Shown here in pieces: positions 40,244-56,439 of a stretch of DNA of 64,000 nt. Source of the DNA: an uncultured Mediterraneibacter sp. (GTDB taxonomy: Bacteria; Bacillota; Clostridia; Lachnospirales; Lachnospiraceae); assembly GCA_944381935.1 (NCBI GenBank), contig CALWMN010000006.1, forward strand, positions 1 through 64,000. Direction: 5' to 3'. A model generated the notes under the pieces. It did not search any database, was not told the origin of the DNA, and saw only the letters and a program-made list of their open reading frames with translations. Position 1 is the first letter of the stretch. Each line of letters opens with the position of its first letter. Made by a program: the position numbers and the translations under genes.

Positions 40244-40287
40244 CCATGTGGCCGTAACGGGAGGAAAGAAAAAGGAGAACATCAGGT

Positions 40288-40929: not shown

Positions 40930-40932
40930 AAG

Positions 40933-41440: not shown

Positions 41441-41449
41441 GGCGGTGTT

Positions 41450-42172
41450 CTATGCAGGCGCTTTGGCAAGTGCCTGCAGAATGTCCGGGATTTCTTTTGA
41501 GCGGGAACAGATCTGATATTCCGGCTCGTGGATGTCCTCCAGATAATGGGCGTCTGAGCAGCAGATTGCCCGGCATCTCTCAAAATACGGATGTTCCTTC
41601 CGGATTCGGTGAAGGTTCTTAAAATCGTGAAACTCCGCACAGGAAAAAGTGCTTCCGGGCGGGACAAACCCCAGGTTAGAGAGAATGCTGGTGGAGGATT
41701 TATCCACATGGGCAGGGTATGCAATACCGTGGTAAGAGGCAACAAGCGGAAAAACCTCGTCAAAAGAAATCGAGGTGGCATTGATGAGGAGGTTTTCCGC
41801 TGTCCCGGTAACTTCATCGGATTCGTCCATGATCTGCTGCTTCCCAAAGATATCCTCCCTGTTGGGCACCGGGATCAGCCGTGCATACACAAAAGCGTCA
41901 AAATCAAGTGCGTCTTCAAGGGCCGGGAACAGGCAGACGACGTGGACCTCCTCCTGCGTCGTCAGCTCCATGCCGGGAATGACGGTCACTCCGTAATTTC
42001 TCCCGTGATACATGGCTGCAGGGCAGTTCCTGCAGCTGTTGTGATCCGTCAGGGCAATCACATCCAGTCCCTTGACAGCCGCCATGCCTGTCAGGTTCGC
42101 AGGAGTCATATCATCATCCCCGCATGGGGAAAGGCAGGAATGGATGTGGAGATCATAGAAAAGCGGAATCAT
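41450..42172 (-). CDS. PHP-domain phosphoesterase in the hydrogenase cluster
   Basis: The 240-aa protein starts FYDLHIHSCLSPCGDDDM and has IALTDHNSCRNC, a central AYPAHVDKSST segment and CCSDAHYLEDI. These are the metal-binding PHP motifs (HxH, D/H, H, DxH). It should be a metal-dependent phosphoesterase of the TrpH type acting on a nucleotide or small phosphate ester. It overlaps the DRTGG gene by 4 bases (ATGA) and is the last gene of the leftward hydrogenase-linked operon. Confidence 0.9.
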   Translation of the reverse strand: MIPLFYDLHIHSCLSPCGDDDMTPANLTGMAAVKGLDVIALTDHNSCRNCPAAMYHGRNYGVTVIPGMELTTQEEVHVVCLFPALEDALDFDAFVYARLIPVPNREDIFGKQQIMDESDEVTGTAENLLINATSISFDEVFPLVASYHGIAYPAHVDKSSTSILSNLGFVPPGSTFSCAEFHDFKNLHRIRKEHPYFERCRAICCSDAHYLEDIHEPEYQICSRSKEIPDILQALAKAPA

Positions 42173-42510
42173 AAATCCCCCGCTTCGTGGATCTCCAAGG
42201 CAATATCGAAGATGGGAAGATCCGTTGCCAGTATGGCGATTCCCTCTTCTTCGGCTTTGGCGAGCGTGTCCTCATCGAGGGAGACGCCCTCTGCAAGAAC
42301 GATGCATGCGGTGTCTGTCAGTGATGCGACGGCGAGGGTGTTCTTATTCCCCATTACCGTTACCCATACGCCGTCGGAGGGAGCCTTGCCCATAGCAATG
42401 CTCAGGAGATCACAGCAGAAGATACGGGAGATCTCCCGGCTGGGATCGCCTTTTACAAGGACCCTGCACTGTGGAAGCTCAAGGATTGTCTGTAATTTCA
42501 TTTGTGTCAC
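42169..42510 (-). CDS. DRTGG-domain protein (copy 2)
   Basis: The 113-aa protein is one DRTGG-like domain. DRTGG domains are named for a motif seen in BioD/phosphotransacetylase-like proteins and may bind nucleotides. Its segment EEEGIAILATDLPIFDIALE aligns with DKGIAILATEHYMFTACGIL of the paralogue at 44363-44707. The GTG at 42510 directly follows the stop of the upstream gene and has AAAGGAATAG at proper spacing; an ATG at 42501 is the alternative. A regulatory role in the cluster is likely but unproven. Confidence 0.8.
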   Translation of the reverse strand: MTQMKLQTILELPQCRVLVKGDPSREISRIFCCDLLSIAMGKAPSDGVWVTVMGNKNTLAVASLTDTACIVLAEGVSLDEDTLAKAEEEGIAILATDLPIFDIALEIHEAGDL

Positions 42511-43923
42511 CTATTCCTTTCCCGGCTGCCTTAAGCTTTCGGGAACCCCGAAAGAGGCAAGCTCGGTCGTGAGTTTTCTGATATATGTGTGGAGCAGCTC
42601 GGTTTCCTCCTCTTTAAGAGGCTTTTCACTGGAGCCTTTTTCCGAGAGATGTTCGATCTTCTGTGTAAGGTCTGCAATATTGGAACGCAGGACATAGATA
42701 CAGTCGTTTGGGGTTGCGTCTCCCCGCACGATATCCTCTGCCAGGGTCTGGCAGGTGGGCGCTCCGCAGGAACCGCAGTCCAGACCGGGGAACCTTGCCG
42801 TGAGCTTCTCCACCTCCCCCATCATCTGAAGGCTTTCCTTAAAGGTATTGCCCAGGCGGAAGACCGGCTCGTATTCCACATTATCTGCCCAGTAAATGTT
42901 CTGCAGTTCAGGATTGTCTGCGAGATGGTTTTTGGAGACGGGCTGATACTTTATCAGCCGCTTGGTCTTGGTGGCAGCGATATAAGCGTTCTCCACGGTC
43001 AGTGTCCCGCCCACGCAGCCGCCGTTGCATGCGCTCAGCTCTACAAAGGTCAGGCCATGCAGCTTTTCATCTTCCAGTTCTTCCAGTACCCGCAGGATAT
43101 TCACGATCCCGTCGGCAGCCAGGTAGCTGTCCACCAGAAGGCCGCCCACCTCTCCTCCGGCGTTGCTCCACCCGATTCCGATCCTCCCCGAGTTGGACAG
43201 CGGCGTAAGCTGGCTTTCGTCCTGTTTCATATGGGGCAGAAGGAGCGGATAGACGTCTTTGATTGCGACCACGTTGTCAATGTTGCTTTTCTCGATGCCG
43301 AGCGGAGCTTTCGCATAAGAGACCTTGGAAGGGCACGGGGAAATGAAAATGATCCCGATCTCTTCCGGAGCCAGTCCGGTCTTCTCCATCGCCCGTGCCC
43401 GCGCGATCTCTGCAGCCACCTCCACGGGAGCCTTGATGGGAAGGAGCCGGGAGATGAGGGAAGGGAATTTCACCCGGATCAGGCGGATGACAGAGGGACA
43501 GGCGGAGCTGATAAAAGGCGCCTCCTTCTCATGCTCTCTGATATATTCCCTTGATGCCTCTGAGACAAGCTCTGCAGCCGCGCTCACTTCATATACATCA
43601 TCAAATCCCAGCTTCAGCAGTGCGTTGAGCACGATGTCCACATTTGTCAGATTATTGTACTGCGCGTAGAGCGAGGGGGCAGGGAGCGCGACCGTATATT
43701 TAAAGTTGTTGATGACGGAAAGCGGGTCATAGACCGGTACCTTTGCGTGATGCGGGCAGTAGCGGATACATCTGCCGCAGTCAATGCAGAACTTGTCGAT
43801 GATATGGGCTTTGCCGTTATGTACGCGTATCGCCTGGGTGGGGCAGTATTTGATACAGTTGATGCATCCCTGGCAGGCGGATTCCCGAAGCCTGACGGAA
43901 CGCATGAATTTATTGGTGTGCAT
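42511..43923 (-). CDS. PAS-less sensory-type [FeFe] hydrogenase-like iron-sulfur protein
   Basis: In this 470-aa protein two [4Fe-4S] motifs come first (CQGCINCIKYCP and CIDCGRCIRYCP). Then comes an H-cluster domain with ligand regions SACPSVIRLIRVKFPS, SPCPSKVSYAKAP and SACNGGCVGGTLTVEN. A C-terminal four-Cys Fe-S domain (LDCGSCGAPTCQTLAEDI) and a helical tail follow. All H-cluster Cys positions appear retained, but Ala replaces the Cys before CP of the TSCCP motif. That suits slow sensory enzymes rather than catalysis. HATPase and DRTGG neighbours support signalling. GAAAGGAGGGCTGTTCTT precedes the ATG. Confidence 0.88.
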   Translation of the reverse strand: MHTNKFMRSVRLRESACQGCINCIKYCPTQAIRVHNGKAHIIDKFCIDCGRCIRYCPHHAKVPVYDPLSVINNFKYTVALPAPSLYAQYNNLTNVDIVLNALLKLGFDDVYEVSAAAELVSEASREYIREHEKEAPFISSACPSVIRLIRVKFPSLISRLLPIKAPVEVAAEIARARAMEKTGLAPEEIGIIFISPCPSKVSYAKAPLGIEKSNIDNVVAIKDVYPLLLPHMKQDESQLTPLSNSGRIGIGWSNAGGEVGGLLVDSYLAADGIVNILRVLEELEDEKLHGLTFVELSACNGGCVGGTLTVENAYIAATKTKRLIKYQPVSKNHLADNPELQNIYWADNVEYEPVFRLGNTFKESLQMMGEVEKLTARFPGLDCGSCGAPTCQTLAEDIVRGDATPNDCIYVLRSNIADLTQKIEHLSEKGSSEKPLKEEETELLHTYIRKLTTELASFGVPESLRQPGKE

Positions 43924-43939
43924 AAGAACAGCCCTCCTT

Positions 43940-44362
43940 TCAGAGGTTGACTTTCATTGTGATGGTAGTCCCGGTTCCAAGTACCGTATCGATGTGCATT
44001 TCATCTGTATACCGCTTCATGTTCGGGAGCCCCATCCCGGCGCCGAAGCCAAGGGAGCGGACCTCTTCCCGGGCAGTGGAATAGCCTTCCTGCATTGCCT
44101 TGTCGATATCCGGTATCCCCGGGCCGCTGTCGGCGAGGACCATTGTGATATCCGTGTCGGATATTGTGACAGTAATGACTCCGCCGTTTGCGTGGATGAC
44201 CATATTGATCTCTCCCTCGTACATCGCGATGGCGACCCTGCGGATGACATCGCTGTCAACGCCGATCATTTTCAGTTTGTTTTTTACCGAACTGCTGGCT
44301 TCCCCGGCACGGGTAAAGTCATCCCCGTCTATCACATAAGTAAATATAAGCTGGTCACTCAT
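43940..44362 (-). CDS. Anti-sigma-factor-like serine kinase (HATPase_c)
   Basis: The 140-aa protein is a single GHKL ATPase domain of the RsbW/SpoIIAB type: N-box region VAIAMYEGEINMVIHANGG, G1 LADSGPGIPD and G2 GFGAGMGLPNMKRYTDEM. There is no histidine phosphoacceptor domain, so it would phosphorylate Ser/Thr of a partner or bind one. It lies directly between a DRTGG gene and the hydrogenase-like sensor, with adjoining stop and start codons. GGGGAGGTGCCTAG precedes the ATG. Confidence 0.9.
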   Translation of the reverse strand: MSDQLIFTYVIDGDDFTRAGEASSSVKNKLKMIGVDSDVIRRVAIAMYEGEINMVIHANGGVITVTISDTDITMVLADSGPGIPDIDKAMQEGYSTAREEVRSLGFGAGMGLPNMKRYTDEMHIDTVLGTGTTITMKVNL

Positions 44363-44707
44363 CTAGGCACCTCCCCTGAGTCCGTGTTCATATAAAATCC
44401 CGCAGGCGGTGAACATATAATGCTCTGTGGCAAGAATTGCGATCCCCTTGTCCATTGCCAGCGTCAGCATATGTTCGTCCGGCATTTTTCCCCGGACAAA
44501 GATAATACAGACAATGTCGAGCATCTCTGCGGTACGGACAACCTGGGGATTGCACAGCCCTGTCATAAGTACAGAGCACTTGCTGCCAAAAGCGAGCACA
44601 TCGCTCATCATATCGGCGGAAAAAACAAAATCGGCGTCCAGTTCTGCAAGCTCTTCCCCATATAAGAACTGTGCATCCAGAGCTTCCTGAATCTCTCTGA
44701 TCGTCAT
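44363..44707 (-). CDS. DRTGG-domain protein (copy 1)
   Basis: The 114-aa protein is one DRTGG-like domain and a paralogue of the copy at 42169-42510. It begins with a short helix (MTIREIQEALDAQFLYGEEL). TTCAGGAGGGTTT precedes the ATG. It is the first gene of the leftward operon, read from the TTGCTT/TATACT promoter. With the HATPase it may form a switch controlled by the downstream H-cluster protein. The ligand is unknown. Confidence 0.82.
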   Translation of the reverse strand: MTIREIQEALDAQFLYGEELAELDADFVFSADMMSDVLAFGSKCSVLMTGLCNPQVVRTAEMLDIVCIIFVRGKMPDEHMLTLAMDKGIAILATEHYMFTACGILYEHGLRGGA

Positions 44708-45023
44708 AAACCCTCCTGAAAATCATGAAAAAAATCGTCCTGTTTCTGCCGGAGAAGTAAGAATCCTCCGGAAAAGCTACCATAAGTATACCATCTGCAT
44801 TTGTAAAAAGCAATGAGAGGCCGGGATGTGGACTGGAAGAAATGCGGAAAAGAAGAAGATAAAACTGAAAAAACATAGTCTATTTTTATGACAAAAAAAT
44901 GGAGATATCCTTAATTGCTTGTGACAATATACAAAAAGTTAATAATAAATAAGTGGAGATTTGGGATATATTGTGATATCATACTAGTAATGAGCACAAA
45001 TTCTAAGAAATGGAGGTTAAAGG
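44708..45023. promoter_or_regulatory. Divergent regulatory region of the hydrogenase operons
   Basis: This is a 316-bp gap without genes. Leftward, TTGCTT (44808-44813) and TATACT (44785-44790) with a 17-base spacer form a good promoter. Rightward the best candidate is TTGTGA (44919-44924) with TAATAA at 18 bases; CATACT at 44980 is another possible -10. TTGT-N8-ACAA (44919-44934) and a second TTGTGA at 44971 loosely resemble half-sites of the NADH sensor Rex, but no full 18-bp Rex operator is present. Confidence 0.5.
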
Positions 45024-45518
45024 ATGGCAGCTAAGAAAGGAACAGTTCCATTTTCAGGGACAAAAGAACAGGAAGAGGCACTAATGAAGACGATTGCTGA
45101 GCTCAAGGATGAAAAAGGTGCCCTGATGCCTATACTGCAGAAGGCACAGGATATATATGGATATCTTCCGGTCGAAGTCCAGAAGATGATTTCAGACGAG
45201 ACGGGAATCCCTATGGAGAAGATATATGGTGTCGCTACATTTTACTCTCAGTTTACGCTGAATCCCAAAGGGAAGTACAAGATTTCCGTCTGTCTTGGGA
45301 CAGCATGTTACGTCAAAGGTTCGGGGGATATTTACAATGCCCTGATGGAGAAACTGGGAATTGTGGGCGGAGAGTGTACGCCTGACGGCAAGTTCTCTCT
45401 GGATGCATGCCGCTGTGTGGGGGCATGCGGCCTGGCTCCCGTCATGATGATCAATGACGAGGTATACGGCCGCCTGACGGTGGATGACCTGGACGGCATA
45501 CTGGCAAAATACGAGTAG
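45024..45518 (+). CDS. hndA: HndA/NuoE-like [2Fe-2S] subunit of bifurcating hydrogenase
   Basis: The 164-aa protein has an N-terminal helical bundle and a thioredoxin-like fold. Four Cys ligate a [2Fe-2S] cluster: VCLGTACYVKGSG, then DACRCVGACGLAPVMM. The YGVATFYSQFTLNPKGK segment is typical of NuoE/HndA. It passes electrons within the NADH/ferredoxin-dependent HydABC or HndABCD complex in the cytosol. AAATGGAGGTTAAAGG precedes the ATG. It is the first gene of the rightward operon. Confidence 0.93.
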   Translation: MAAKKGTVPFSGTKEQEEALMKTIAELKDEKGALMPILQKAQDIYGYLPVEVQKMISDETGIPMEKIYGVATFYSQFTLNPKGKYKISVCLGTACYVKGSGDIYNALMEKLGIVGGECTPDGKFSLDACRCVGACGLAPVMMINDEVYGRLTVDDLDGILAKYE

Positions 45519-45521
45519 CCT

Positions 45522-46082
45522 ATGATGCCGGAGATTGCTCTGAATATCCTGGATGTTGCGGAGAACTCCGTACGTGCGAAGGCGTCCCTTGTGGAAATCA
45601 CGGTTTCCGTACAGCCAAAGGAGGATACGCTCACTGTCGTAATAAAGGACGACGGATGCGGGATGACGCCGGAACAGGCAGAGAAGGTCCAGGACCCTTT
45701 TTTCACGACAAGAACGACGAGAAAGGTGGGCCTTGGAGTCCCGTTCTTTAAGCAGGCGGCGGAGAGTACGGGAGGCAGATTCCAGATTGATTCAGAAAAG
45801 GATAAAGGAACAGTGGTGACGGCAGTGTTTACCCTGTCGCATATCGACAGGATGCCGCTTGGAGATATCAGCTCGACGATCCATACCCTGATCGTGTTCC
45901 ATGAGGATACGGATTTCCGATATACCTATCAGTACAACGAGAAAAGCTTTACATTGGACACCCGGGAGATGAAAGAGATCCTGGGGGACAACATTTCCTT
46001 TGCCGAGAAGGAAGTGTCGGATTTTATCAGGGATTATCTGGAGACGAATAAGACAGAGGCGGACGGAGGAGCGGATATATAA
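45522..46082 (+). CDS. Stand-alone HATPase_c protein within the hydrogenase operon
   Basis: The 186-aa protein has a GHKL ATPase domain (N-box LDVAENSVRAKAS, G1 KDDGCGMTP, FFTTRTTRKVGLGVPFFK, G2 GTVVTAVF). A C-terminal domain of about 80 residues follows, without a histidine phosphoacceptor. It begins 3 bases after hndA with only a weak ribosome binding site, indicating coupled translation. A conserved kinase inside an enzyme operon suggests H2- or redox-linked signalling rather than catalysis. Its phosphorylation target is unknown. Confidence 0.88.
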   Translation: MMPEIALNILDVAENSVRAKASLVEITVSVQPKEDTLTVVIKDDGCGMTPEQAEKVQDPFFTTRTTRKVGLGVPFFKQAAESTGGRFQIDSEKDKGTVVTAVFTLSHIDRMPLGDISSTIHTLIVFHEDTDFRYTYQYNEKSFTLDTREMKEILGDNISFAEKEVSDFIRDYLETNKTEADGGADI

Positions 46083-46114
46083 GATTTTATTTTGTTTAGA
46101 AGTGGAGGAATTAG

Positions 46115-46498
46115 ATGAAATCACTTGAAGAATTACGTGCGATCAGAACTAAGATGCAGGGCAAAGTGGGAGTTCGCGCAGAGAATGAGAACCAGACCCG
46201 CGTGGTGGTGGGAATGGCTACCTGCGGAATTGCAAGCGGGGCAAGACCGGTCCTGACAGCTCTGTCTGACGCTGTACAGGAACAGGGACTGACGGATAAG
46301 ATCAATGTGACACAGACGGGATGTATCGGACTGTGCCAGTATGAACCGATCGTGGAAGTAATGGAGCCGGGAAAAGAAAAGGTGACATATGTGAAGATGA
46401 CTCCCGAAAAGGCGCTGGAAGTGCTGAGGCGTCATCTGCTGGGCGGTCAGGTCGTGACAAAATATACGCTGAGTGCAGCACAGAAGAACGCGGAATAG
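46115..46498 (+). CDS. hndB: HndB-like thioredoxin-fold [2Fe-2S] subunit
   Basis: The 127-aa protein has a ferredoxin of the thioredoxin-like [2Fe-2S] type with VGMATCGIASGARPVL and TQTGCIGLCQYEPIVEV supplying Cys ligands. It matches HndB of HndABCD hydrogenases and is similar to the N-terminal domain of the next gene product. GTGGAGGAATTAG precedes the ATG. It is a soluble electron-transfer subunit. Confidence 0.9.
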   Translation: MKSLEELRAIRTKMQGKVGVRAENENQTRVVVGMATCGIASGARPVLTALSDAVQEQGLTDKINVTQTGCIGLCQYEPIVEVMEPGKEKVTYVKMTPEKALEVLRRHLLGGQVVTKYTLSAAQKNAE

Positions 46499-46516
46499 AA
46501 AGGGAGGTTAATTTTT

Positions 46517-48304
46517 ATGTATCGTTCACATGTACTTGTTTGCGGCGGAACCGGATGTACCTCCTCCGGCAGCCAGAGAATTATAGACAGACTTGAAAAG
46601 GAGATTGCGGCGAACGGGCTTTCCGAAGAAGTAGGCGTTGTCAAGACAGGATGCTTCGGGCTGTGTGCACTTGGTCCCATCATGATCGTCTATCCGGAAG
46701 GGACATTTTATTCTATGGTGCAGGAGGATGATATTCCGGAGATCGTCTCAGAGCATCTTCTCAAAGGAAGGGTCGTGACGCGCCTTCTCTATGACGAGAC
46801 GACAAAGGCGGACCAGATCATTCCGCTTAACGAGACGAATTTTTATAAGAAACAGCACAGGGTAGCGCTGAGAAACTGCGGTGTCATCAATCCTGAGAAC
46901 ATCGAGGAATACATAGGAACAGGCGGATATGAGGCGCTTGGCATCGTGCTGACGGAGAAAAGGCCGGAGGATGTGATCCAGATCCTTCTCGACAGCGGCC
47001 TGAGAGGAAGAGGGGGCGCCGGTTTCCCCACCGGTCAGAAGTGGAAGTTTGCAGCCCAGAATGAAGCGGACCAGAAATATGTCTGCTGCAACGCGGATGA
47101 AGGAGATCCGGGAGCATTTATGGACCGCTCTATCCTGGAGGGAGATCCCCATTCGGTGCTTGAGGCGATGGCGATCGCGGGATATGCAATTGGAGCTTCC
47201 CAGGGATATATCTACGTCAGGGCAGAATACCCGATCGCGGTAAAGCGTCTTGAGATCGCGATCGGACAGGCGAGAGAATACGGTCTTCTTGGAAAGAATA
47301 TCTTTGATTCAGGATTTGATTTTGATATAGAACTGAGACTCGGTGCAGGAGCATTTGTTTGCGGCGAGGAGACGGCTCTCATGACTTCCATCGAAGGCAA
47401 CAGGGGAGAGCCAAGGCCCCGTCCGCCGTTCCCGGCGCTTAAAGGTCTGTTCCAGAAACCGACCATCTTAAATAACGTGGAGACCTACGCGAACATTCCT
47501 CAGATCATTGTAAACGGGCCTGAGTGGTTCGCTTCAATGGGGACGGAGAAATCCAAGGGCACGAAGGTATTTGCCCTGGGAGGCAAGATCAACAATACGG
47601 GACTGGTAGAGATTCCGATGGGAACCACGCTCCGGGAGATCGTGGAGGAGATCGGCGGGGGAGTCCCCAACGGAAAGAAGTTCAAGGCGGCGCAGACCGG
47701 GGGGCCTTCCGGCGGATGTATCCCGGCGGAGCACTTCGACATCCCGATTGACTATGATAACCTGATTGAGATCGGCTCTATGATGGGATCGGGCGGTCTG
47801 ATCGTGATGGATGAAGATACCTGCATGGTCGACATCGCCAAGTTTTTCCTGGAGTTTACTGTAGATGAATCCTGCGGCAAATGTACTCCGTGCCGGATCG
47901 GAACAAGGCGTATGCTGGAGATACTGGAGAAGATCACGAAGGGGCAGGCTACGATGGAAGACCTGGATAAGCTGGAAGAACTTTGCAGCCATCTGAAAGA
48001 AAATTCCCTGTGTGCCCTCGGGCAGACGGCGCCGAATCCGGTGCTCTCTACGCTGCGCTACTTCAGGGATGAATATATCGCCCACATTGTTGACAAGAAA
48101 TGTCCGGCAGGAGTCTGTAAGGATCTTCTGCAGTACAGGATCGACCCGGATAAATGTAAGGGATGTACGCTCTGTGCAAGGACATGTCCTGCCGATGCGA
48201 TCATCGGCAAGGTGAAAGAACCGCATATGATCAATCCGGAGAAGTGCTTAAAATGCGGCGCTTGTATGGAAAAATGCCGGTTTGGGGCTATTTACAAAGA
48301 ATGA
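46517..48304 (+). CDS. hndC: HndC/HydB, NADH- and FMN-binding subunit of bifurcating hydrogenase
   Basis: In the 595-aa protein the N-terminal thioredoxin-like [2Fe-2S] domain (CGGTGCTSSGSQ, KTGCFGLCALGP) is followed by the NuoF core. That core has the NADH/FMN site GRGGAGFPTGQKWKFAAQ and CNADEGDPGAFMDRSILEGD, an SLBB domain, and the [4Fe-4S] motif ESCGKCTPCRIGTRR. Two C-terminal [4Fe-4S] motifs follow (CKGCTLCARTCP and CLKCGACMEKC). This is the site of flavin-based electron bifurcation or confurcation with NADH in the family. GGGAGGTTAATTTTT precedes the ATG. Confidence 0.96.
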   Translation: MYRSHVLVCGGTGCTSSGSQRIIDRLEKEIAANGLSEEVGVVKTGCFGLCALGPIMIVYPEGTFYSMVQEDDIPEIVSEHLLKGRVVTRLLYDETTKADQIIPLNETNFYKKQHRVALRNCGVINPENIEEYIGTGGYEALGIVLTEKRPEDVIQILLDSGLRGRGGAGFPTGQKWKFAAQNEADQKYVCCNADEGDPGAFMDRSILEGDPHSVLEAMAIAGYAIGASQGYIYVRAEYPIAVKRLEIAIGQAREYGLLGKNIFDSGFDFDIELRLGAGAFVCGEETALMTSIEGNRGEPRPRPPFPALKGLFQKPTILNNVETYANIPQIIVNGPEWFASMGTEKSKGTKVFALGGKINNTGLVEIPMGTTLREIVEEIGGGVPNGKKFKAAQTGGPSGGCIPAEHFDIPIDYDNLIEIGSMMGSGGLIVMDEDTCMVDIAKFFLEFTVDESCGKCTPCRIGTRRMLEILEKITKGQATMEDLDKLEELCSHLKENSLCALGQTAPNPVLSTLRYFRDEYIAHIVDKKCPAGVCKDLLQYRIDPDKCKGCTLCARTCPADAIIGKVKEPHMINPEKCLKCGACMEKCRFGAIYKE

Positions 48305-48322
48305 TAGTGGAGGGTAGAGAAG

Positions 48323-50065
48323 ATGGAAAATGTTAATTTAAAGATTAATGGCTTGAATGTTACCGCACCTGCAGGCTCTACAATCCTGGAAGCGGCACAG
48401 GCAGCAGGGATCAGAATCCCGACGCTGTGTTATTTAAAAGAGATCAATGAGATCGGAGCCTGCCGTATGTGCGTGGTCGAGGTAAAGGGAGCAAGGAATC
48501 TGGTTGCAGCGTGCGTCTATCCTGTCTCCGAAGGAATGGAAGTCCAGACGAATACGAAGAAGCTTTTAGACGCCAGAAGAAGGACGCTTCAGCTCCTTTT
48601 ATCCAATCATGATAAAAAGTGTCTCTCCTGTGTGCGCAGCGGTCAATGCGAGCTGCAGGAACTCTGCCAGGAGCTGGGAGTCGACGACGAACACTATTTT
48701 GACGGGGAATCGACACAATATGAACCGGATGACAGCGCAATTCACATGATACGTGACAACAACAAATGCATCCTCTGCCGCAGATGCTCGGCAGTATGTG
48801 AAAAGGTGCAGGCTGTCGGTGTGATCGGTCCCAATAACCGTGGTTTTGCCACGTTTATCGGCTCGGCATTTGAGATGGGGTTGGGAGATACAAGCTGTGT
48901 GGGATGCGGACAGTGCATTTCCGCCTGTCCGACAGGAGCGCTCTATGAGAAAGACAATACCGATGAGGTGCTTGCAGCCATTGCCGATGGGACGAAGCAT
49001 GTGGTGGTCCAGCCGGCACCATCTGTGCGGGCGGCTCTTGGCGAGGAGTTCGGCTATCCGATGGGAACGGACGTGGAAGGAAAGATGGCGGCGGCCCTTA
49101 GAAGGATCGGATTCGACAGGGTATTCGATACAAACTTCAGCGCGGACCTTACGATTATGGAAGAGGCAAATGAGTTCATCGACCGGGTGCAGAACAAAGG
49201 AGTGCTCCCGATGCTGACCTCCTGTTCACCGGGTTGGATCAAATACTGTGAGCACTACTATCCGGATCAGCTGGAGCATCTCTCAAGCTGCAAATCGCCT
49301 CAGCAGATGTTCGGTGCGATCACAAAGACATACTATGCGGAGAAGATGGGGATTGCCCCGGAAGATATCGTGTGCGTCAGCGTGATGCCCTGCACGGCGA
49401 AGAAGTTTGAGATTCAGCGTGATGACCAGTATGCGGCGGGAGTTCCGGATGTAGATATCTCCATCACGACGAGAGAGCTTGCGCGCCTGATCCGCAAAGT
49501 CGGCATTAATTTCCGCAGCCTGCCGGATGAAGGATTCGACGATCCGTTAGGAGAGTCCACGGGAGCAGGAGTGATCTTCGGAGCGACCGGCGGTGTAATG
49601 GAGGCGGCGCTGCGCACCGCTGTGGAGAAGCTGACAGGTACAGAGCTTGAGAAGGTTGACTTTATGGAAGTGCGCGGAACCAAAGGCATCAAGGAAGCGA
49701 CATACAATGTGGCAGGGATGGATGTGAAGGTTGCCGTTGCATCAGGACTGAGCAATGCGAAGATCATTATGGATAAGGTGCGCGCCGGGGAGGCAGATTA
49801 TCATTTTATTGAGATCATGTGCTGTCCGGGCGGATGTGTAAACGGAGGCGGTCAGCCTCAGGTACATGCAGATGTACGCAACTTTGAAGATGTAAAGACA
49901 ATCCGGGCGAAGGCGCTGTATGATAATGACGCGGCAAAGACATTCAGGAAGTCCCATGACAACCCGTCCATCAAGAAAGTGTATGACGAGTATCTGGGGC
50001 ATCCGGGAAGCGAGAAAGCGCATCACATACTTCACACTACATATGTAAAGAGAACGATCAATTAA
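48323..50065 (+). CDS. hndD: [FeFe] hydrogenase catalytic subunit HndD/HydA (M3 type)
   Basis: The 580-aa enzyme reduces protons to H2. Modules in order: N-terminal plant-type [2Fe-2S] (CYLKEINEIGACRMC), His-Cys3 [4Fe-4S] (HDKKCLSCVRSGQC), two [4Fe-4S] (CILCRRCSAVC and CVGCGQCISACP), and the H-cluster domain. The H-cluster domain carries TSCSPGWIKYCEHYYP, VMPCTAKKFE and EIMCCPGGCVNGGGQP. A small-subunit-like C-terminus completes it. Ser stands where prototypes read TSCCPGW, as I recall for HndD-type enzymes. Maturases HydEFG are not in the window. A strong terminator follows. Confidence 0.97.
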   Translation: MENVNLKINGLNVTAPAGSTILEAAQAAGIRIPTLCYLKEINEIGACRMCVVEVKGARNLVAACVYPVSEGMEVQTNTKKLLDARRRTLQLLLSNHDKKCLSCVRSGQCELQELCQELGVDDEHYFDGESTQYEPDDSAIHMIRDNNKCILCRRCSAVCEKVQAVGVIGPNNRGFATFIGSAFEMGLGDTSCVGCGQCISACPTGALYEKDNTDEVLAAIADGTKHVVVQPAPSVRAALGEEFGYPMGTDVEGKMAAALRRIGFDRVFDTNFSADLTIMEEANEFIDRVQNKGVLPMLTSCSPGWIKYCEHYYPDQLEHLSSCKSPQQMFGAITKTYYAEKMGIAPEDIVCVSVMPCTAKKFEIQRDDQYAAGVPDVDISITTRELARLIRKVGINFRSLPDEGFDDPLGESTGAGVIFGATGGVMEAALRTAVEKLTGTELEKVDFMEVRGTKGIKEATYNVAGMDVKVAVASGLSNAKIIMDKVRAGEADYHFIEIMCCPGGCVNGGGQPQVHADVRNFEDVKTIRAKALYDNDAAKTFRKSHDNPSIKKVYDEYLGHPGSEKAHHILHTTYVKRTIN

Positions 50066-50093
50066 TTGCTGATAATTGTTGACCGGGAAAAGA

Positions 50094-50140
50094 AAAAGCC
50101 CTGTGGCATGGTTTTTAAGCTGCGCCACAGGGCTTTTATC
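50094..50140. terminator. Strong bidirectional terminator after hndD
   Basis: AAAAGCCCTGTGGC (50094-50107) and GCCACAGGGCTTTT (50124-50137) form a perfect 14-bp stem with a 16-base loop. The A and T runs suit both directions. Confidence 0.92.
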
Positions 50141-50146
50141 ATGGGA

Positions 50147-50997
50147 TCAGCCTGTTGCTTTCACTCTGGGATAAGAGTTCGTCCCGCTTCCACACATATC
50201 AAAGAAGGCGAGATATGCATTGTCTGTGCAGTCGTCATCCACAACCCAGGCGAACGTACACTCCAGTGTTTCGCCGGCACCGATCTCTGCAAAGCGCACA
50301 TGCTTTTTCCGGCTGCCGGTAAACTGCTGGATGCTCTGGAAGAGAGGCTCCCCTTCAACACTCAGAGAAGCATAAGCGGCGGAAGCCGGCTGCACATAAA
50401 AACGTTCAAATTCACCGGCATCATCTGTTTTCAGGAGCTCAAGCATCGGAGTGATATACGCCTCCTGAGAACTGTCTTCGGTATTGGTGATCTCCACCGT
50501 GGCAGTGATAAACTTTGAGCCGACAGTCTCGATATTTTCCGCTGTTGTATCTTCGGCATCCGGGGAATACCGTTCGTGCGATTTGAGTGTGCCGTCTTCA
50601 TTCAGGAGGGGAGCAACTGCACTGTCATAGTCCGTCACATAGCTTTCCTCCGGGAACTGAGCCTGCGGGAGCGAGTCAGTGACCGTGATATCTGCGACTT
50701 TATACCGGATCGGGTTTTCAGGATGCAGGGGATCGGTGATCTCATCCTGTACGGAGAAGAAAAAGGATTCCCCATAGGACAGGTCAAAGGATGCCTTCTG
50801 TCCTTCCTGATCTGCCAGTATTTTTTCGATTTCATTCTCACTGGGATAGGGCACGGTCTTGTCGCTGACCTCGATATCCAGGCCTTCTGCAACTTTAAAT
50901 GCTTCATCTTCTGAGAGATCCGGCCTTCCAGGAAAACATGGATGGCATCGCCCTTTAAGATCTGCGCCATTTCTTCCTGTGAAAATTCTTTTTTCAA
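50147..50997 (-). pseudogene. Frameshifted hypothetical protein gene
   Basis: From 50997 the minus strand reads a helical start (KKEFSQEEMAQILKGDAIHV) up to LEGR near 50922. Coding sense then continues in another frame as PDLSEDEAFKVAEGLDIEVS, through YPSENEIEKILADQEG to the stop at 50147. A single lost or gained base in the GGCCGG tract at about 50920-50930 explains it. The body resembles a beta-rich DUF5067/DUF4352-like domain, but without a signal peptide. The start is a TTG behind AAGGAGGAA and is doubtful. It follows a broken sigma-factor gene in the same direction. Confidence 0.7.
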
Positions 50998-51057
50998 TTC
51001 CTCCTTATCAGGTTATCTGCTAATCTTGGCTTTCTGCATTTTGGCAGGATAGAGGCA

Positions 51058-51288
51058 TCAGGTAGCCGCGCTCTGGGCGGACCAGATTTCCCGGAATTTT
51101 TTTCTGCCGCGCGTAAGCCGGGTTTTTACCGTATTTTCATCGAGGAGCTGGGCAGTCTCGCTGATCTTGAGTCCTTCTCCGTAATAAAGAAGGAGGACGG
51201 TGCGGTATTTTTCATCCAGGGAGCGCATCAGTTCCTCAAATATGCTATCGTTCCCTCCTTCTTTTTGGCGGATATATGCTGCAGCTTC
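51058..51288 (-). pseudogene. Truncated ECF sigma factor (region 4 only)
   Basis: Seventy-six codons remain, beginning EAAAYIRQKEGGNDSIFEEL. They contain the sigma-70 region 4 pattern LDEKYRTVLLLYYGEGLKIS and ETAQLLDENTVKTRLTRGRK, then stop at 51058. There is no start codon; an in-frame stop lies directly upstream, and a TATAAT-like box at about 51297-51302 sits next to the break. Region 2 seems deleted. It and the following frameshifted gene look like a decayed sigma factor and associated-protein operon. Confidence 0.8.
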
Positions 51289-51432
51289 CTATCCCTATTA
51301 TACAGAAAAAAACACCAGAGCTACTGTTTTGCTGGATATTCGCAGAAGGCTTTGCTAAAATAATGCTTATAGAGAAAATGTGCGCAATAAACGGCTGAAA
51401 GGGGCTGTAGAAAAGCAAGGAGGGTATGTAAA

Positions 51433-53142
51433 ATGAGAGTCATTGACTTTAAAGATGCGAAATGCCGACACTGCTATAAATGTGTCCGCCACTGTGCGGT
51501 GAAGGCGATCTCCGTCAGGGATGAACAGGCGCGTATCATGGTAGACCACTGCATCAACTGCGGGCGCTGCCTGGAGGTCTGTCCCCAGAATGCGAAGACG
51601 TTTGCCAGCGACCTGGACCGGGTGAAGGGTTATCTGGAACAGGGGTTTAGGACCGTTATATCCATTGCCCCGTCCTACGCCGGGGTGCTGGAGTTTGACC
51701 GGCCCGGGCAGGTTGTGGACGCCCTGCAGAAACTGGGTTTTGCCGAAGTGCGGGAGACGGCGGAAGGGGCGGCTATGGTGACGAATGAATATAAGAAGCT
51801 TGTCTGGGAAAACAAGATGCCCAATATCATCACAACCTGCTGTCCGAGTATGAACGACCTTGTGGAGAAATATTATCCAGACTGTGCAAAGCTTATGGCT
51901 CCGGTCGTATCGCCTATGGTGGCTCACGGACGCTATATTAAAAAGATCTACGGATCCGATGTGAAAGTGGTATTCCTGGGACCGTGCATTGCCAAGAAGC
52001 AGGAGGCGATCGGGGACGAGCGGGTGTTCGGGGCGATCGACGCGATTCTCACCTTCGAGGAGCTGGCTCTCTGGCTGAGGGATGCAGGGATCGATCTTCG
52101 CTCCTGCGAGGACATGCCGATGGGGAATCCCGATCCGAAGATTAACCGCCTGTATCCTGTCAGCGGAGGCGTAATCCAGTCGGTGATCACGGAAGAGGAT
52201 GCAGATCAATACCACAAGGTGTTTGTGGACGGTCTCGAGAACTGCATGGAGATGCTGGAATGTCTGCAGAGAGGCGAGCTGGACCACTGCTTTATCGAGG
52301 CGAATGTCTGTGAGGGCGGCTGCGCGAAGGGACCTGCATCTGCACACTGGAATACTTCTTATGTAAAGACGAAAGTGAAGATCGAGAACGTGGTGTCCTA
52401 TAAGGCAGCGCGTGACCTTCCAGATATGAGCACGGAAGAGCTGGCAAAGGATTTTGGCGACCACAGCCTGTCCGACCCCATGCCGTCGGAGGAGCAGATC
52501 CAGCGCATCCTGAAGTCTACCGGAAAATATTCCCAGGAAGACCAGCTCAACTGTGGGGCGTGCGGTTACTCTACATGCCGGGAGAAAGCGATCGCTGTTT
52601 TCCAGGGAAAAGCGGAGCTGTCTATGTGTATGCCATACGCGCTGACCCAGGCGGAGTCCATGTCCAATGTCGTCATGGATGTGACGCCAAATATGGTATT
52701 TGTCATTGGCAGTGATATGAAAATCCTGGACTGCAACAAGAGGGGACAGGAGCTTCTCGGCGTGGGAAGAGAGGAGGCCGTACAGCGCTACATATTTGAG
52801 TTTATTGAGGCGGAGGACATTGAGAACGCCCTCCTGACAAGGGAGAATGTGCTGCACAAGAAAGTCCGGCTTGAGAACGGGAAGATCACAGCGGAGGAAA
52901 CCATTGTCTACATTGAAAATCTGGACGCCGTGCTTGTAATCTTCCAGGATGTGACGAGAGAGGAGAAGATCAAGGAGCAGCATTATAACCTGAAGGTGGA
53001 GACGGTGGAAATGGCTCAGAAAGTCATTGAAAAACAGATGATGGTGGCACAGGAGATCGCCGGACTGCTCGGGGAAACGACTGCGGAGACAAAGGTGACG
53101 CTTACAAAGCTGCGGGATTCCATTCTCAATGAAGAGGATTAA
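51433..53142 (+). CDS. hydS: Sensory [FeFe] hydrogenase with PAS domain (HydS, group C type)
   Basis: In the 569-aa protein two [4Fe-4S] motifs (CRHCYKCVRHC, CINCGRCLEVC) precede an H-cluster domain with TTCCPSMNDLVEKYYPD, GPCIAKKQEAIGDE and NVCEGGCAKGPASAHW. A four-Cys Fe-S domain (LNCGACGYSTCREKA) and a PAS domain (about 415-510, starting DVTPNMVFVIGSDMKILDCN) follow, with a coiled-coil tail. HydS proteins are known as H2 sensors in Clostridia and Thermotoga. The adjacent SpoIIE phosphatase is their usual partner. AAGCAAGGAGGGTATGTAAA precedes the ATG. Confidence 0.94.
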   Translation: MRVIDFKDAKCRHCYKCVRHCAVKAISVRDEQARIMVDHCINCGRCLEVCPQNAKTFASDLDRVKGYLEQGFRTVISIAPSYAGVLEFDRPGQVVDALQKLGFAEVRETAEGAAMVTNEYKKLVWENKMPNIITTCCPSMNDLVEKYYPDCAKLMAPVVSPMVAHGRYIKKIYGSDVKVVFLGPCIAKKQEAIGDERVFGAIDAILTFEELALWLRDAGIDLRSCEDMPMGNPDPKINRLYPVSGGVIQSVITEEDADQYHKVFVDGLENCMEMLECLQRGELDHCFIEANVCEGGCAKGPASAHWNTSYVKTKVKIENVVSYKAARDLPDMSTEELAKDFGDHSLSDPMPSEEQIQRILKSTGKYSQEDQLNCGACGYSTCREKAIAVFQGKAELSMCMPYALTQAESMSNVVMDVTPNMVFVIGSDMKILDCNKRGQELLGVGREEAVQRYIFEFIEAEDIENALLTRENVLHKKVRLENGKITAEETIVYIENLDAVLVIFQDVTREEKIKEQHYNLKVETVEMAQKVIEKQMMVAQEIAGLLGETTAETKVTLTKLRDSILNEED

Positions 53143-53157
53143 GGGAAGGGGGACCTG

Positions 53158-54336
53158 ATGATGAGTGTGAGTATTGATGTGGCGTGGAAGAGCCTGAATA
53201 AGTACCGGGAAGAGCTGTGCGGGGACAAGGTCGAGGTGCTTAAGACTTCTGATTCGGATATCCTGATCCTGGCGGATGGGATGGGGAGCGGTGTGAAGGC
53301 AAATATTCTGGCTACCCTGACTTCCAAGATCCTTGGGACCATGCTCCAGGAAGGGGCGACAATCGAATCGTGCGTGGAGACGATCGCAAAGACGCTTCCG
53401 ATCTGTAAAGTGCGCAAAGTCGCATATGCGACGTTCAGCATCCTTCAGATCTTTCACGGCGGGGAAGCTTATCTGGCTGAGTTTGACAATCCGTCTTGCG
53501 TGTTCATCCGCGACGGCAGGATTGTGAACTATCCCTATCAGGTGCGGGAGATTGAGAATAAGAAGGTGCATGAATACCGCTTTACGGTAAAGAAGAACGA
53601 CTGCTTCGTACTGATGAGCGACGGCGTGATCTACGCAGGGGCCGGCTCCATCCTGAATATGCAGGGATGGACCTGGGAGGCGATGGCAGAATATACGCTG
53701 AAGTGCACGAAGAAGACGCTGTCGGCTTCCCGCCTGGCAGTGATGCTTAGCCAGGCGTGTGATGAACTCTATGAGGAAAAGCCGGGAGACGATACAACGG
53801 TGGCAGTTGCCAGAGTGATAGAGCGGAAAGTGGTCAATATATTTACCGGTCCTCCGAAGAAGAAGGAGGACGATGAACGGCTGATGCACGATTTCATGCA
53901 TATGGAAGGCAGTAAGGTCGTGTCAGGCGGGACAAGCGCGAATATCGCGGCAAGGTTTCTGGGGAAAGAGGTTATAACAAAAGCGGACAGCCGCAACCCG
54001 GATGTGCCGCCGACAGCATCGATAGACGGGATCGATCTTGTCACAGAGGGGGTCCTGACCCTCGGAAAGTGCCTGAAGCTTCTGAAAAAATTTGTCAACA
54101 GTGAGTTTGACGCGGAGTTTTTTGATGAGCTGGATGCAGACAACGGAGCCTCACGCCTGGCAAAGCTTCTGATAGAAGAATGTACAGAGCTCAATCTCTT
54201 TGTGGGGACGGCGGTCAATGGCGCCCACAAGGAATCCGAGCTGAACTTTGACCTGAGCATGAGGCAGAACCTGGTGGACCAGCTGGTCAAAACCGCTGAA
54301 GAGATGGGACGGGCAGTGAGGGTGACATATTATTAG
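53158..54336 (+). CDS. SpoIIE/PP2C-type protein serine phosphatase linked to HydS
   Basis: The 392-aa protein has the PP2C metal motif LADGMGSGVKAN (Asp40), MSDGVIYAG and PGDDTTVAVAR, defining a SpoIIE phosphatase domain in residues 1-220. A C-terminal domain of about 170 residues (with VSGGTSANIAARFLGKEV and FFDELDADNGASRLAKLL) is of unknown role. It lies 15 bases after hydS. It probably dephosphorylates a protein in response to the state of the H-cluster; the RsbW-like kinases upstream are natural opponents. Confidence 0.92.
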   Translation: MMSVSIDVAWKSLNKYREELCGDKVEVLKTSDSDILILADGMGSGVKANILATLTSKILGTMLQEGATIESCVETIAKTLPICKVRKVAYATFSILQIFHGGEAYLAEFDNPSCVFIRDGRIVNYPYQVREIENKKVHEYRFTVKKNDCFVLMSDGVIYAGAGSILNMQGWTWEAMAEYTLKCTKKTLSASRLAVMLSQACDELYEEKPGDDTTVAVARVIERKVVNIFTGPPKKKEDDERLMHDFMHMEGSKVVSGGTSANIAARFLGKEVITKADSRNPDVPPTASIDGIDLVTEGVLTLGKCLKLLKKFVNSEFDAEFFDELDADNGASRLAKLLIEECTELNLFVGTAVNGAHKESELNFDLSMRQNLVDQLVKTAEEMGRAVRVTYY

Positions 54337-54342
54337 CCTCCG

Positions 54343-56439
54343 TTATTCCAGATAGTAGGTGTTGAACCCGTATCCGGTGCGGAACTCGATTTCGACATAC
54401 TCATTTTTCTCGTTCCGCTCATCCAGTATTCCGGGGCATCCGTACGTTATATTGCCAAGAAGAGCCCGGATATCCTGTTTGTCTGTGATGAGGACAGGGG
54501 TAAATTCATCTGCCGGCAGTTCTGTTACGGACGGCAGGGCAGGGAGATAGTCCGGGAGTTCCCCTTTGCGTATGGAGTCGGCGGAGAGATACAGGCTGAT
54601 ACTGCTGACCTCTTCGGGATCGATCTCTTTTTGGAGAGTGTATCCGTATTCCTCCAGGCAGGAAAGCGTGTTTGTATAAGTCTCATATATGTAAAAACCG
54701 GACAGGTTGGCCAGGGACTGACCGACGGACTCTATGGCGGCAGCCCCGGAGCTGATTTCCGTCTCGGAGTAATTGTCCAGCAGTTCGACAGACAGTTCGC
54801 CGAGAGGGGTCCCATACCGGAGCGTCCCGGCATCTGCAGCAAGGACATCCTGCTCATACGCATCCAGGAGACGGTTCACCTGATCCGGACTCAGGGAAAG
54901 CGTCTCGGGGAGCCCGTAAATATCATACAGGTACAAGGAGCGGATGGCAGAACGGTCAAGGTGGAAGACGGGGAAAAGATTTCGGCGGTACTCCTCATCG
55001 TCCAGGGCCTGCGAAAGAAGGGCAGCTGTCCGGGAGGTGTCTACGGAATATGCCCTTGAGGTTTTGCACCCGTTTGACAGCTCATAGTAAAAAACCGTGT
55101 ACATCTTACCGCTGCCGTCCTCCCGTGCTCCGAGGTCGCCGGACCCGGATATCCCGGAATGTGCGAGACCATATGCCATATCCCTGCAGTCCTCTGGCAC
55201 AGGGACGGTGGTATTCAGCTCATAGCTGTCCCCATAGGGAAAGGGGTACTGAAAATAGCTGTCAAAGGAAAAAGGTTTCAGGCCTATGGTTTCCAGGGCG
55301 TCCTTTTTGGGCAGCCATGTATCGTATCCGAACAGGTCGAACTGAAAGATGCAGAGGATAACCGCGACACCCGCGACTGAGAGAAGAGATGACTTCCAGC
55401 TTCTGAAAATCTGCGCAAGATCCAGGCGATAGACCAATTCGATGACACAGCAGATCAGGATGCACATTATCATTCCCATGACGATGATCCACTTGGTTCC
55501 GGAAGCGCCGATATAGTTGTTGATAAAGATCCCAAGAGAAAGGGATGCGGGAACACTGATCAGGATCTTAAGCACAGGCGCCAGCCTGGGAAATGAGAGG
55601 GGATTGCCGGCAGCTTCTGAGGGATAGGCTTTGTACAGCAGAAAGGCAGCGGCAAGAAAGACGGCAGAAAAAAGCAGGGCAGCAAAAACAAGGGATAGCC
55701 GGGGATAGCCGGAGACCGTGTCGGCCAGATGGGAGAAAAGGGCGGCGGGGGACAGGTATACAGCCGCTTTCTCAAACAAGGACGGCGCAATCGGATAGTA
55801 AGCCTCAAAAAATACTCCTTTCAGCGAGGTTATCATATTCAGCGCTACACTGCAGTAAACGGAAAGAATAAGCGCGGCGATAAGACCTGTCACAGTTGTT
55901 CCGGTCAGAAGCATGGCGAATATACCGGTGTGATAGATCAGAAGGAAAGAGAGAAGGCCGATGCCAAACGCCGTGATGCACTTCCATGTCAGGGCAGGGT
56001 CTGCGATGCCGTTTGCATACCCGGCTGCGATGACCAGGGCAGAACAGATGGCATACGGCACGGCAAATATAATCAGACCGCTTACATAGACAGTGCAAAA
56101 CCACTGTTCCCTTTTTATGGGAAAGGAGTGGTAGAAATCCAGCTTTTCCCGGGAATGTATGTAGTGGAAGCCGGTCCCGGCAAGGGTGAGGGCAAGCACA
56201 AAGAGTGCGATATGCAGCACAGAGGCAGTGGCGCCTGAGATCAGGCCGGGAAACCTGCCGTACAGACTCTCCAGTGCGTCCTGCGGTGAATAGGCGAAAG
56301 CCGCCCTTACACTGTCCATATGTATCATCGTATATACGGGCATCAGAAGGAAAAGTCCGGCAGCAGCCAGAGCGGCCAGCCATCCGCGCCTCTTAATGTC
56401 TTTTATGATGAGTTTAGTAAAGGAAATCTTTGATATCAT
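54343..56439 (-). CDS. ABC transporter permease of a GntR-controlled operon
   Basis: The 698-aa protein has about nine hydrophobic segments in residues 20-390 and a large extracytoplasmic domain of about 300 residues at the C-terminus (starting near YDTWLPKKDALETIG). The layout resembles ABC-2/YtrC-type permeases that handle antimicrobials or acetoin-related functions. The ATG at 56439 follows GGAGGTTGCAGGTT and lies inside the end of the ATPase gene (26-base overlap). Substrate unknown. Confidence 0.85.
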   Translation of the reverse strand: MISKISFTKLIIKDIKRRGWLAALAAAGLFLLMPVYTMIHMDSVRAAFAYSPQDALESLYGRFPGLISGATASVLHIALFVLALTLAGTGFHYIHSREKLDFYHSFPIKREQWFCTVYVSGLIIFAVPYAICSALVIAAGYANGIADPALTWKCITAFGIGLLSFLLIYHTGIFAMLLTGTTVTGLIAALILSVYCSVALNMITSLKGVFFEAYYPIAPSLFEKAAVYLSPAALFSHLADTVSGYPRLSLVFAALLFSAVFLAAAFLLYKAYPSEAAGNPLSFPRLAPVLKILISVPASLSLGIFINNYIGASGTKWIIVMGMIMCILICCVIELVYRLDLAQIFRSWKSSLLSVAGVAVILCIFQFDLFGYDTWLPKKDALETIGLKPFSFDSYFQYPFPYGDSYELNTTVPVPEDCRDMAYGLAHSGISGSGDLGAREDGSGKMYTVFYYELSNGCKTSRAYSVDTSRTAALLSQALDDEEYRRNLFPVFHLDRSAIRSLYLYDIYGLPETLSLSPDQVNRLLDAYEQDVLAADAGTLRYGTPLGELSVELLDNYSETEISSGAAAIESVGQSLANLSGFYIYETYTNTLSCLEEYGYTLQKEIDPEEVSSISLYLSADSIRKGELPDYLPALPSVTELPADEFTPVLITDKQDIRALLGNITYGCPGILDERNEKNEYVEIEFRTGYGFNTYYLE

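Follow-up and report, generated by a model that had tools for sequence, protein, structure and literature searches.

How does a sensory hydrogenase pass on what it senses? For group D sensory hydrogenases, the available parts of two accounts treat this question as still unanswered (PMC8163306, PMC13104023). It is raised again by a stretch of 64,000 nucleotides (nt) from an uncultured Mediterraneibacter sp. (GenBank assembly GCA_944381935.1, contig CALWMN010000006.1, positions 1 to 64,000; here called the window), in which a group D H-cluster protein, HydS_D, is encoded among small genes for two DRTGG-domain proteins (DRTGG1 and DRTGG2), an ATPase (HATP1) and a PHP-domain phosphoesterase (PHP), next to a hydrogenase operon, hnd, that holds a second ATPase gene (HATP2). 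We lean towards reading these five proteins together with HATP2 as one signalling cassette, probably one complex, that would report H2 or the low-potential redox state to ferredoxin/NAD(H) enzymes, and judged from the sequences and their context we hold this to be slightly more probable than its negation. The cassette looks like a self-contained redox switch, and the reading is built on the recurrence of the module and on natural fusions among its genes. The features concerned are as follows (lengths in amino acids, aa).

41450..42172, minus strand: PHP, PHP-domain phosphoesterase, 240 aa (PF02811, E 1.7e-8)
42169..42510, minus strand: DRTGG2, DRTGG-domain protein, 113 aa (PF07085, E 5.2e-6)
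42511..43923, minus strand: HydS_D, group D (M2e-type) H-cluster protein, 470 aa (PF02906, E 4.4e-31, and PF04060)
43940..44362, minus strand: HATP1, SpoIIAB-like ATPase, 140 aa (PF13581, E 1.5e-11)
44363..44707, minus strand: DRTGG1, 114 aa (PF07085, E 1.1e-6)
44708..45023: intergenic region from which the sensor module and hnd diverge
45024..45518, plus strand: HndA, NuoE-like (PF01257, E 1.6e-52)
45522..46082, plus strand: HATP2, histidine-kinase-like ATPase domain, 186 aa (PF02518, E 3e-17)
46115..46498, plus strand: HndB, 2Fe-2S, thioredoxin-like (PF01257, E 2e-5)
46517..48304, plus strand: HndC, NuoF-like with extra Fe-S domains (PF01512 and PF10589, nuoF family)
48323..50065, plus strand: HndD, group A [FeFe]-hydrogenase large subunit (NF040763, 924.6 bits, cut-off 765)

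Conservation and natural fusions of the sensor module

The sensor-module genes form a tight run on the minus strand (DRTGG1, HATP1, HydS_D, DRTGG2 and PHP, from 44707 down to 41450), in which the stop of DRTGG1 directly abuts the start of HATP1, the stop of HydS_D directly abuts the start of DRTGG2, and DRTGG2 and PHP overlap by 4 nt. The divergent plus-strand run holds hndA, HATP2, hndB, hndC and hndD (45024-50065), followed by the genes of a second H-cluster protein, HydS_C, and a phosphatase, PP2C (51433-54336). A preliminary description of 41450-54336 had listed a complete HndABCD-type gene set, two extra H-cluster proteins, two stand-alone HATPases, two DRTGG proteins, a PHP protein and a SpoIIE-type phosphatase, and every gene was found in its place: hndA, hndB, hndC and hndD all lie on the plus strand, the two H-cluster proteins differ in kind, one with and one without a PAS domain, and the two HATPases differ in type, one SpoIIAB-like and the other histidine-kinase-like. 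It had also taken the 13 kb as a single supercluster; the genes are linked, but they fall into two separable modules with different histories.

We sampled 299 genomes across the phylum and searched them with profiles and whole-genome searches for HydS_D. These genomes are not independent by descent, and genes were called as open frames scored with custom profiles, so that an apparent miss can be a calling error; the locus flanks were about 10 kb and the denominators below are the loci with enough flanking sequence. Full-length HydS_D was present in 117 of the 299 genomes and HATP1 followed it closely: 116 genomes have both, 1 has HydS_D alone, 10 have HATP1 alone and 172 have neither, which puts HATP1 in 116/117 genomes with HydS_D against 10/182 of the others. 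HydS_D occurs in 32 of 37 genomes of the window's genus, including the window's own and one fragment at a contig end (G015), and a HydS_D of the group D type in 10 of 24 genomes of other families.

The neighbourhood of the gene is kept as well. The named loci, which are the best 80 of 588 confirmed matches and biased to near relatives, have HATP1 in 75/75, DRTGG1 in 74/75, DRTGG2 in 69/71 and PHP in 69/71 and, where the flanks are wide, hnd genes in 43/47 and HATP2 in 43/47. At ten loci of other families the counts are 10/10 for both DRTGG1 and HATP1, 9/9 for DRTGG2, 5/9 for PHP, 3/7 for hnd and 4/7 for HATP2, and at 40 loci from across the phylum 38/38 for HATP1, 32/38 for DRTGG1, 35/37 for DRTGG2, 32/37 for PHP, 25/30 for hnd and 28/30 for HATP2. 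A further set of 20 phylum loci, partly chosen to confirm fusions and second copies, gave HATP1 in 14/19, DRTGG1 in 10/19, PHP in 15/20, hnd in 16/16, and DRTGG2, or a gene scored as DRTGG1 in its place, in 20/20. A common order beyond the window's relatives runs on one strand, DRTGG1-HATP1-HydS_D-DRTGG2-PHP-hndA-HATP2-hndB-hndC-hndD. Among 23 control loci with a group C HydS, some of them only 4-5 kb long, none (0/23) passed the same thresholds for DRTGG1, DRTGG2, HATP1 or PHP; at one of them (L051) a weaker BLASTP match to PHP was found in an unrelated-looking protein of 391 aa. Given these controls, the linkage of the module exceeds chance. Co-occurrence in related genomes had been proposed as a check on the supercluster, and it is strong across the phylum for the DRTGG genes, HATP1, HydS_D, PHP and hnd, but the PP2C branch is weakly linked.

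Gene fusions often mark physical partners. We screened 160 annotated loci for joined frames and found 13 fusion open reading frames of five kinds, seven of which (L185-L190 and L192) were fetched from families that already showed the fusion in question. DRTGG1 is fused to HATP1 at seven loci in two families (L142, L143, L186-L190), HydS_D to DRTGG2 at two (L148, L185), PHP to HATP2 at two (L166, L192), HATP1 to HydS_D at one (L172) and HATP2 to HndB at one (L147). Pfam confirms the domain pairs in L142, L166 and L172, the DRTGG match of L142 scoring 22.4 bits, below the cut-off of 25.2. Taken together, the fusions connect the parts of the sensor module in a chain that extends to a hydrogenase subunit, and they indicate which protein pairs to examine first.

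Other observations speak against a fixed cassette of this kind. Over the near-relative, other-family, phylum-wide and further sets, PHP is missing in 2/71, 4/9, 5/37 and 5/20 loci and DRTGG1 in 1/75, 0/10, 6/38 and 9/19, and HATP1 is missing in 5/19 of the last set; with these gaps, only the DRTGG2 of HydS_D is near-constant across all sets. Second copies of HydS_D (L175, L178, L180, L182, L184) keep one DRTGG gene together with hndA, hndB, hndC and hndD, and at these five loci no HATP1, upstream DRTGG1 or PHP was found, a minimal form. The coupling of DRTGG1 with HATP1 lies above that of shuffled pairs (effective number 66), but the averages for DRTGG1-PHP and HATP1-PHP do so too, and since all three pairs exceed the shuffles, shared descent can explain the DRTGG1-HATP1 signal. 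In the NiFe enzyme operon of A. mobile, the hisK product is stated to lie outside the holoenzyme in the available part of the report (PMC9304861); if hisK is the counterpart of HATP2, which its name alone would suggest, that would argue against a standing subunit role of HATP2.

Proposed inputs and outputs of the cassette

HydS_D shows the pattern of group D (M2e), with an N-terminal 2x[4Fe-4S] part, a C-terminal [4Fe-4S] part and the cysteines of the H-cluster. The four H-cluster cysteines, C142, C197, C299 and C303, are invariant in 13/13 aligned sequences, and so, over the same 13 rows, are C17, C20, C23, C27, C46, C49, C52, C56, C383, C386, C391 and C408. No PAS domain was found in it by a Pfam scan. 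Residue 141, just before the invariant C142, is an alanine where the proton-transfer cysteine is expected, and the absence of this cysteine (C299 of CpI) is given as a criterion of group D in the available part of PMC8163306.

The best solved relatives of HATP1 are anti-sigma F factors, SpoIIAB (PDB 1til, E 6e-8), and it matches TIGR01925 (spIIAB) with E 2e-15, yet below the family cut-off. Its E49, N53 and R102, invariant in 95 aligned sequences, align with E46, N50 and R105 of SpoIIAB, which we take to be the catalytic Glu, Asn and Arg of a GHKL kinase, and by this alignment HATP1 has counterparts of the catalytic residues of the SpoIIAB/RsbW kinases. In DRTGG1 the residues D32, M34, S35, V37, T49, Q55, T59 and D64 are invariant over 94 aligned sequences, and S35, T49 and T59 could be phosphate acceptors, although S35 may equally be structural. 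PHP keeps H9, H11, D43, H44, E69, H155, D207 and H209 in at least 99% of 87 aligned sequences, residues that presumably are of the metal-ligand type.

On the output side, the hnd operon has the four subunits of an HndABCD enzyme, NuoE-like, 2Fe-2S, NuoF-like and H-cluster, and HndD scores above the NCBIfam cut-off for 'NADH-dependent [FeFe] hydrogenase, group A6' (924.6 vs 765 bits). The enzyme presumably bifurcates electrons and so couples ferredoxin and NAD(H), a question that the family name does not settle. HATP2 sits between hndA and hndB; its C-terminal part is conserved among aligned relatives and Pfam gives no HisKA match in it.

The hydrogenase is not the only neighbour. At five loci (L039, L041, L167, L168, L170) rnf genes follow directly downstream of the module on the same strand. 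The stretch examined there yielded no hnd catalytic genes; L167 has an HndB-like gene by the custom profile, without a Pfam match. Pfam identifies RnfC at all five loci, and in L041 and L168 also RnfD-type subunits. Eight of the loci L175-L190 (L176, L177, L181, L183, L186, L188-L190) have rnfC and rnfD after hnd. The input varies as well. Ten genomes have HATP1 and no full HydS_D; three of them have a broken or partial HydS_D match, in one (G295) HATP1 is on a contig of 4 kb, and the remaining six gave seven loci. At four of these (L227-L230) HATP1 carries an N-terminal pair of CBS domains, HydS_D is absent and DRTGG1 stands beside HATP1 in 4/4, with DRTGG2, PHP and HATP2 present in L227, L229 and L230. 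L227 runs into hndA-hndB-hndC and L228 into an hndB-like gene and rnf, and no Hnd or Rnf was found in the stretch examined of L229 and L230. In L225, L226 and L231 HATP1 has neither CBS nor HydS_D; DRTGG1 is present in L226 and L231, and DRTGG2 and HATP2 in L225 and L231. CBS domains on HATP1 also occur alongside HydS_D, in L138 (one CBS match) and L167. The CBS-HATP1 loci without HydS_D suggest that HydS_D is one interchangeable input part of a wider cassette.

Two side observations belong to these loci. L226 has at 7336-9616 an overlapping DRTGG1/HATP1 pair without HydS_D, a possible minimal core, with a Rex-like gene just downstream. A Rex-type regulator stands beside L227 according to Pfam, and Rex-like genes lie near L225, L226 and L231, as judged from sequence starts.

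A module dedicated to the hydrogenase, as the preliminary description had it, is contradicted by the rnf-linked loci, and together with the cassettes for which no Hnd was found they led us to reject it. The same loci bear on another explanation, in which HydS_D and the surrounding gene products would be accessory proteins of Hnd and Rnf or help to assemble them, through Fe-S or flavin loading or quality control, with the ATPases driving assembly. The frequent linkage to Hnd or Rnf fits such a role, and so do the HATP2-HndB fusion and the five second copies in which HydS_D and one DRTGG gene stay with hnd. A CBS pair on HATP1 where HydS_D is absent is however a ligand-sensing type of change, and in L229, L230 and L101 the stretch examined shows a cassette but neither Hnd nor Rnf; we consider the assembly role unlikely.

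The HydS_C-PP2C branch and the search for a partner switch

Downstream of hnd the plus strand carries two further genes.

51433..53142, plus strand: HydS_C, group C H-cluster protein, 569 aa (PF02906, E 6e-58; PF04060; PF00989, E 4e-7)
53158..54336, plus strand: PP2C/SpoIIE-type phosphatase of the HfsC type (PF07228, E 2.3e-15)

HydS_C has C-terminal FeS and PAS domains, as do HfsB and the Ruminococcus albus HydS, and an H-cluster protein with PAS that adjoins a PP2C/SpoIIE phosphatase is the make-up of group C3 and of HfsB-HfsC. PP2C of this type adjoins HydS_C in 21/23 control loci, and the per-locus counts of both are lower bounds with flanks of about 10 kb. An HfsC-like PP2C occurs in 64/117 genomes with HydS_D (absent in 53) versus 30/182 others, and is thus associated with HydS_D by genome, not obligately. 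Of the 64 genomes with both, only the window's own has the two no more than 20 kb apart on a shared contig; in 12 a shared contig puts at least 43 kb between them, and in 51 they are on different contigs. In the window's genus HydS_D and HydS_C share a contig at a distance of up to about 22 kb in at least 10 of 32 genomes, among the matches listed and in fragmented assemblies, and the HydS_C-PP2C pair stands beside hnd in that genus and some relatives (L043, L044, L048, L064, L066). The two branches are joined most closely in an uncultured Lachnospiraceae (L101, 9084-15276), where DRTGG1-HATP1-HydS_D-DRTGG2-PHP-HydS_C-PP2C form one co-directional run of seven genes with overlaps at the last three junctions; no hydrogenase was found within the 21 kb of sequence of this locus. 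We read HydS_C-PP2C as a separable second branch for H2 sensing, of the known hfsBC type. The claim that it belongs to one network with the sensor module is only weakly supported: L101 and the window's relatives join both and keep this part of the earlier idea alive, but beyond those relatives the two are rarely linked.

The C-terminal part of PP2C, about 170 aa (window 53817-54336), is well conserved, yet it matches no Pfam family at E 0.01. A long group C HydS of 730-770 aa is present in L148 (13769-16072), L217 and L221, with no PP2C found beside it, and in L148 the C-terminus of this protein matches HATPase models.

A phosphatase near a SpoIIAB-like ATPase brings to mind the classical partner switch, and the preliminary description had proposed a partner-switching network that adjusts the expression or activity of the hydrogenase. 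In the classical form HATP1 and HATP2 would be anti-sigma kinases, PP2C their phosphatase, and an unlinked STAS protein and sigma factor would complete the control of hnd expression. HATP1 is closest to SpoIIAB, the SpoIIE-type phosphatase is 9 kb away, PP2C is commoner with HydS_D than without it, L101 joins both modules in one run, and a broken ECF sigma fragment lies inside the cluster, all of which agree with a partner switch. As had been claimed, no STAS protein is found near the cluster; a search of the whole genome gave one match, SpoIIAA-like, beside SpoIIAB-like and sigma-like genes, names that we assume for what appears to be a sporulation operon. Only one other SpoIIE-like match is present in the genome, on another contig. 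The sigma factor that had been called absent nearby is there as a fragment, and no intact one is linked. Set against the partner switch are also the 53/117 HydS_D genomes that lack PP2C and the absence of the sigma fragment from L044 and L064. We reject STAS partner switching, its sole STAS match belonging to a SpoIIAA-like sporulation setting, and the sigma fragment as part of the system, and regard the classical scheme as very improbable.

The fragment itself, of the ECF type (51061-51288, minus strand; Sigma70_r4_2, E 1.3e-13), lies between hndD and HydS_C, next to a gene remnant within 50147-50997 (minus strand) that is related to a DUF4367 protein of 498 aa in L059 and that we take to be an anti-sigma-like gene. 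In L044 and L064 this insert is lacking, and the gap between HndD and HydS_C is 90 and 9 nt.

HATP2 resembles the ATPase domains of histidine kinases, and older annotations suggest a histidine-kinase system in which HATP1 and HATP2 would work with an unlinked DHp protein or response regulator on input from HydS_D. The linked gene is named a histidine kinase or HK-like ATPase in the available parts of PMC3608648 and PMC8163306, and a response-regulator-like family occurs near 13/157 HydS_D loci. A Pfam scan of 17 proteins or protein pieces of the window, however, showed no DHp/HisKA or receiver domain, HATP1 retains the SpoIIAB-type residues, and within 6 kb of the 157 HydS_D loci no unassigned, real-looking neighbour family occurs in more than 16. 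For lack of a HisKA or receiver match among these window proteins and of a widely recurring neighbour family we reject a two-component system; histidine-kinase signalling in the wider sense seems to us quite improbable.

The top neighbour families, judged from sequence starts, were folC-like (16 loci), response-regulator-like (13) and Rex-like (9), after families at 34, 16, 12 and 9 loci had been set aside by eye as apparent antisense frames. The folC-like gene, a frequent neighbour outside the window's relatives, is found near L167, L168, L183, L190, L225-L228, L230 and L231, and in the window at 57914-59206; a tRNA-synthetase-like gene often accompanies it (13 loci, from sequence starts). 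An Rfam scan of 40000-56000 gave no match. A search of the window with a Rex consensus at up to two mismatches gave 0 matches against 1.1 expected, and thus none in the intergenic region 44708..45023.

A possible mechanism and its known relatives

The signalling cassette that we favour could work as follows. HydS_D would sense H2 with its H-cluster, which would be too altered for rapid turnover, and the state of its Fe-S relay would shift. This change would alter the activity or binding of HATP1, the SpoIIAB-like ATPase, which would then act on its usual partner DRTGG1. DRTGG1 would fill the place that a STAS protein has in the classical switches, for which it is the natural candidate because it is adjacent to HATP1, co-inherited with it and fused to it, and because no STAS partner was found. 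PHP, where present, would strip the phosphate or a related signal, and HATP2 and DRTGG2 would relay the result to hnd or rnf, through expression or direct contact. H2 as the signal, the phosphorylation of DRTGG1 by HATP1 and the output are the presumptive steps. A more specific proposal is a switch free of STAS, with HATP1 as Ser/Thr kinase for DRTGG1, PHP as phosphatase, the H-cluster protein HydS_D or CBS domains that sense nucleotides as swappable inputs and direct delivery through HATP2 and DRTGG2 to Hnd or Rnf. We put it forward tentatively and think it rather doubtful, but if true it would add a new family to the known types of phospho-signalling in bacteria.

The cassette names likely signalling partners for a group D sensor: HATP1, present in 116/117 sensor genomes, and a DRTGG protein as the closest companion. 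Such a near-constant set of partners makes the signalling route of the sensor directly testable. As gut and other anaerobes have the same cassette next to Hnd or Rnf, it may be a general control on the ferredoxin/NADH balance and H2 output.

Parts of this setting are already in print, and we cite the sources below from their available parts. A group D hydrogenase next to a kinase, with a bifurcating hydrogenase downstream, is described in PMC3608648 and PMC3561251 (both citing Calusinska 2010), so a group D HydS near a kinase and a bifurcating hydrogenase is no novelty. TamHydS of Thermoanaerobacter mathranii has an HK-like ATPase and an AraC regulator as its neighbours (PMC8163306). Clostridium thermocellum has upstream phosphatases, kinases and PAS sensors (PMC3492117), Thermoanaerobacterium has hfsBC (PMC5707799, PMC11837493), R. 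albus has a HydS with a phosphatase (PMC6776011), HydDB has a group C3 (PMC5037454), and HydS and Rex have been proposed as regulators of Hnd (PMC10084766). In the parts of the literature available to our search we came across no account of the cassette with DRTGG and PHP genes, of the fusions, of the CBS variant or of the link to Rnf; some of the neighbours are possibly drawn in Calusinska 2010 or Zheng 2014.

The closest known relative of HydS_D is of the TamHydS type (PMC8163306, PMC13104023), which likewise has no PAS, a C-terminal FeS motif and no proton-transfer cysteine, and shares with the window a HATPase neighbour and a bifurcating-type hydrogenase neighbour. DRTGG1 and DRTGG2, PHP, the fusions, the CBS variant and the Rnf linkage set the window and its relatives apart from the group D accounts, whose available parts do not mention them. 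HydS_C-PP2C has the same two-gene make-up as HfsB-HfsC and the R. albus HydS with its phosphatase, but differs from HfsB-HfsC in lying near a group D module and hnd and not with hfsA and hfsD. The likeness to SpoIIAB/RsbW is in the sequence of HATP1, its retained Glu, Asn and Arg and the small partner gene directly upstream, whereas this partner is a DRTGG protein and not a STAS protein, and no sigma factor was seen to accompany the pair. Finally, the CBS-DRTGG insert of the CBS-pyrophosphatases, as given in the available part of PMC10742508, resembles the CBS-HATP1/DRTGG loci in having both domains side by side; in the pyrophosphatases the insert lies inside the enzyme, whereas at our loci the domains belong to separate proteins that stand together with an ATPase.

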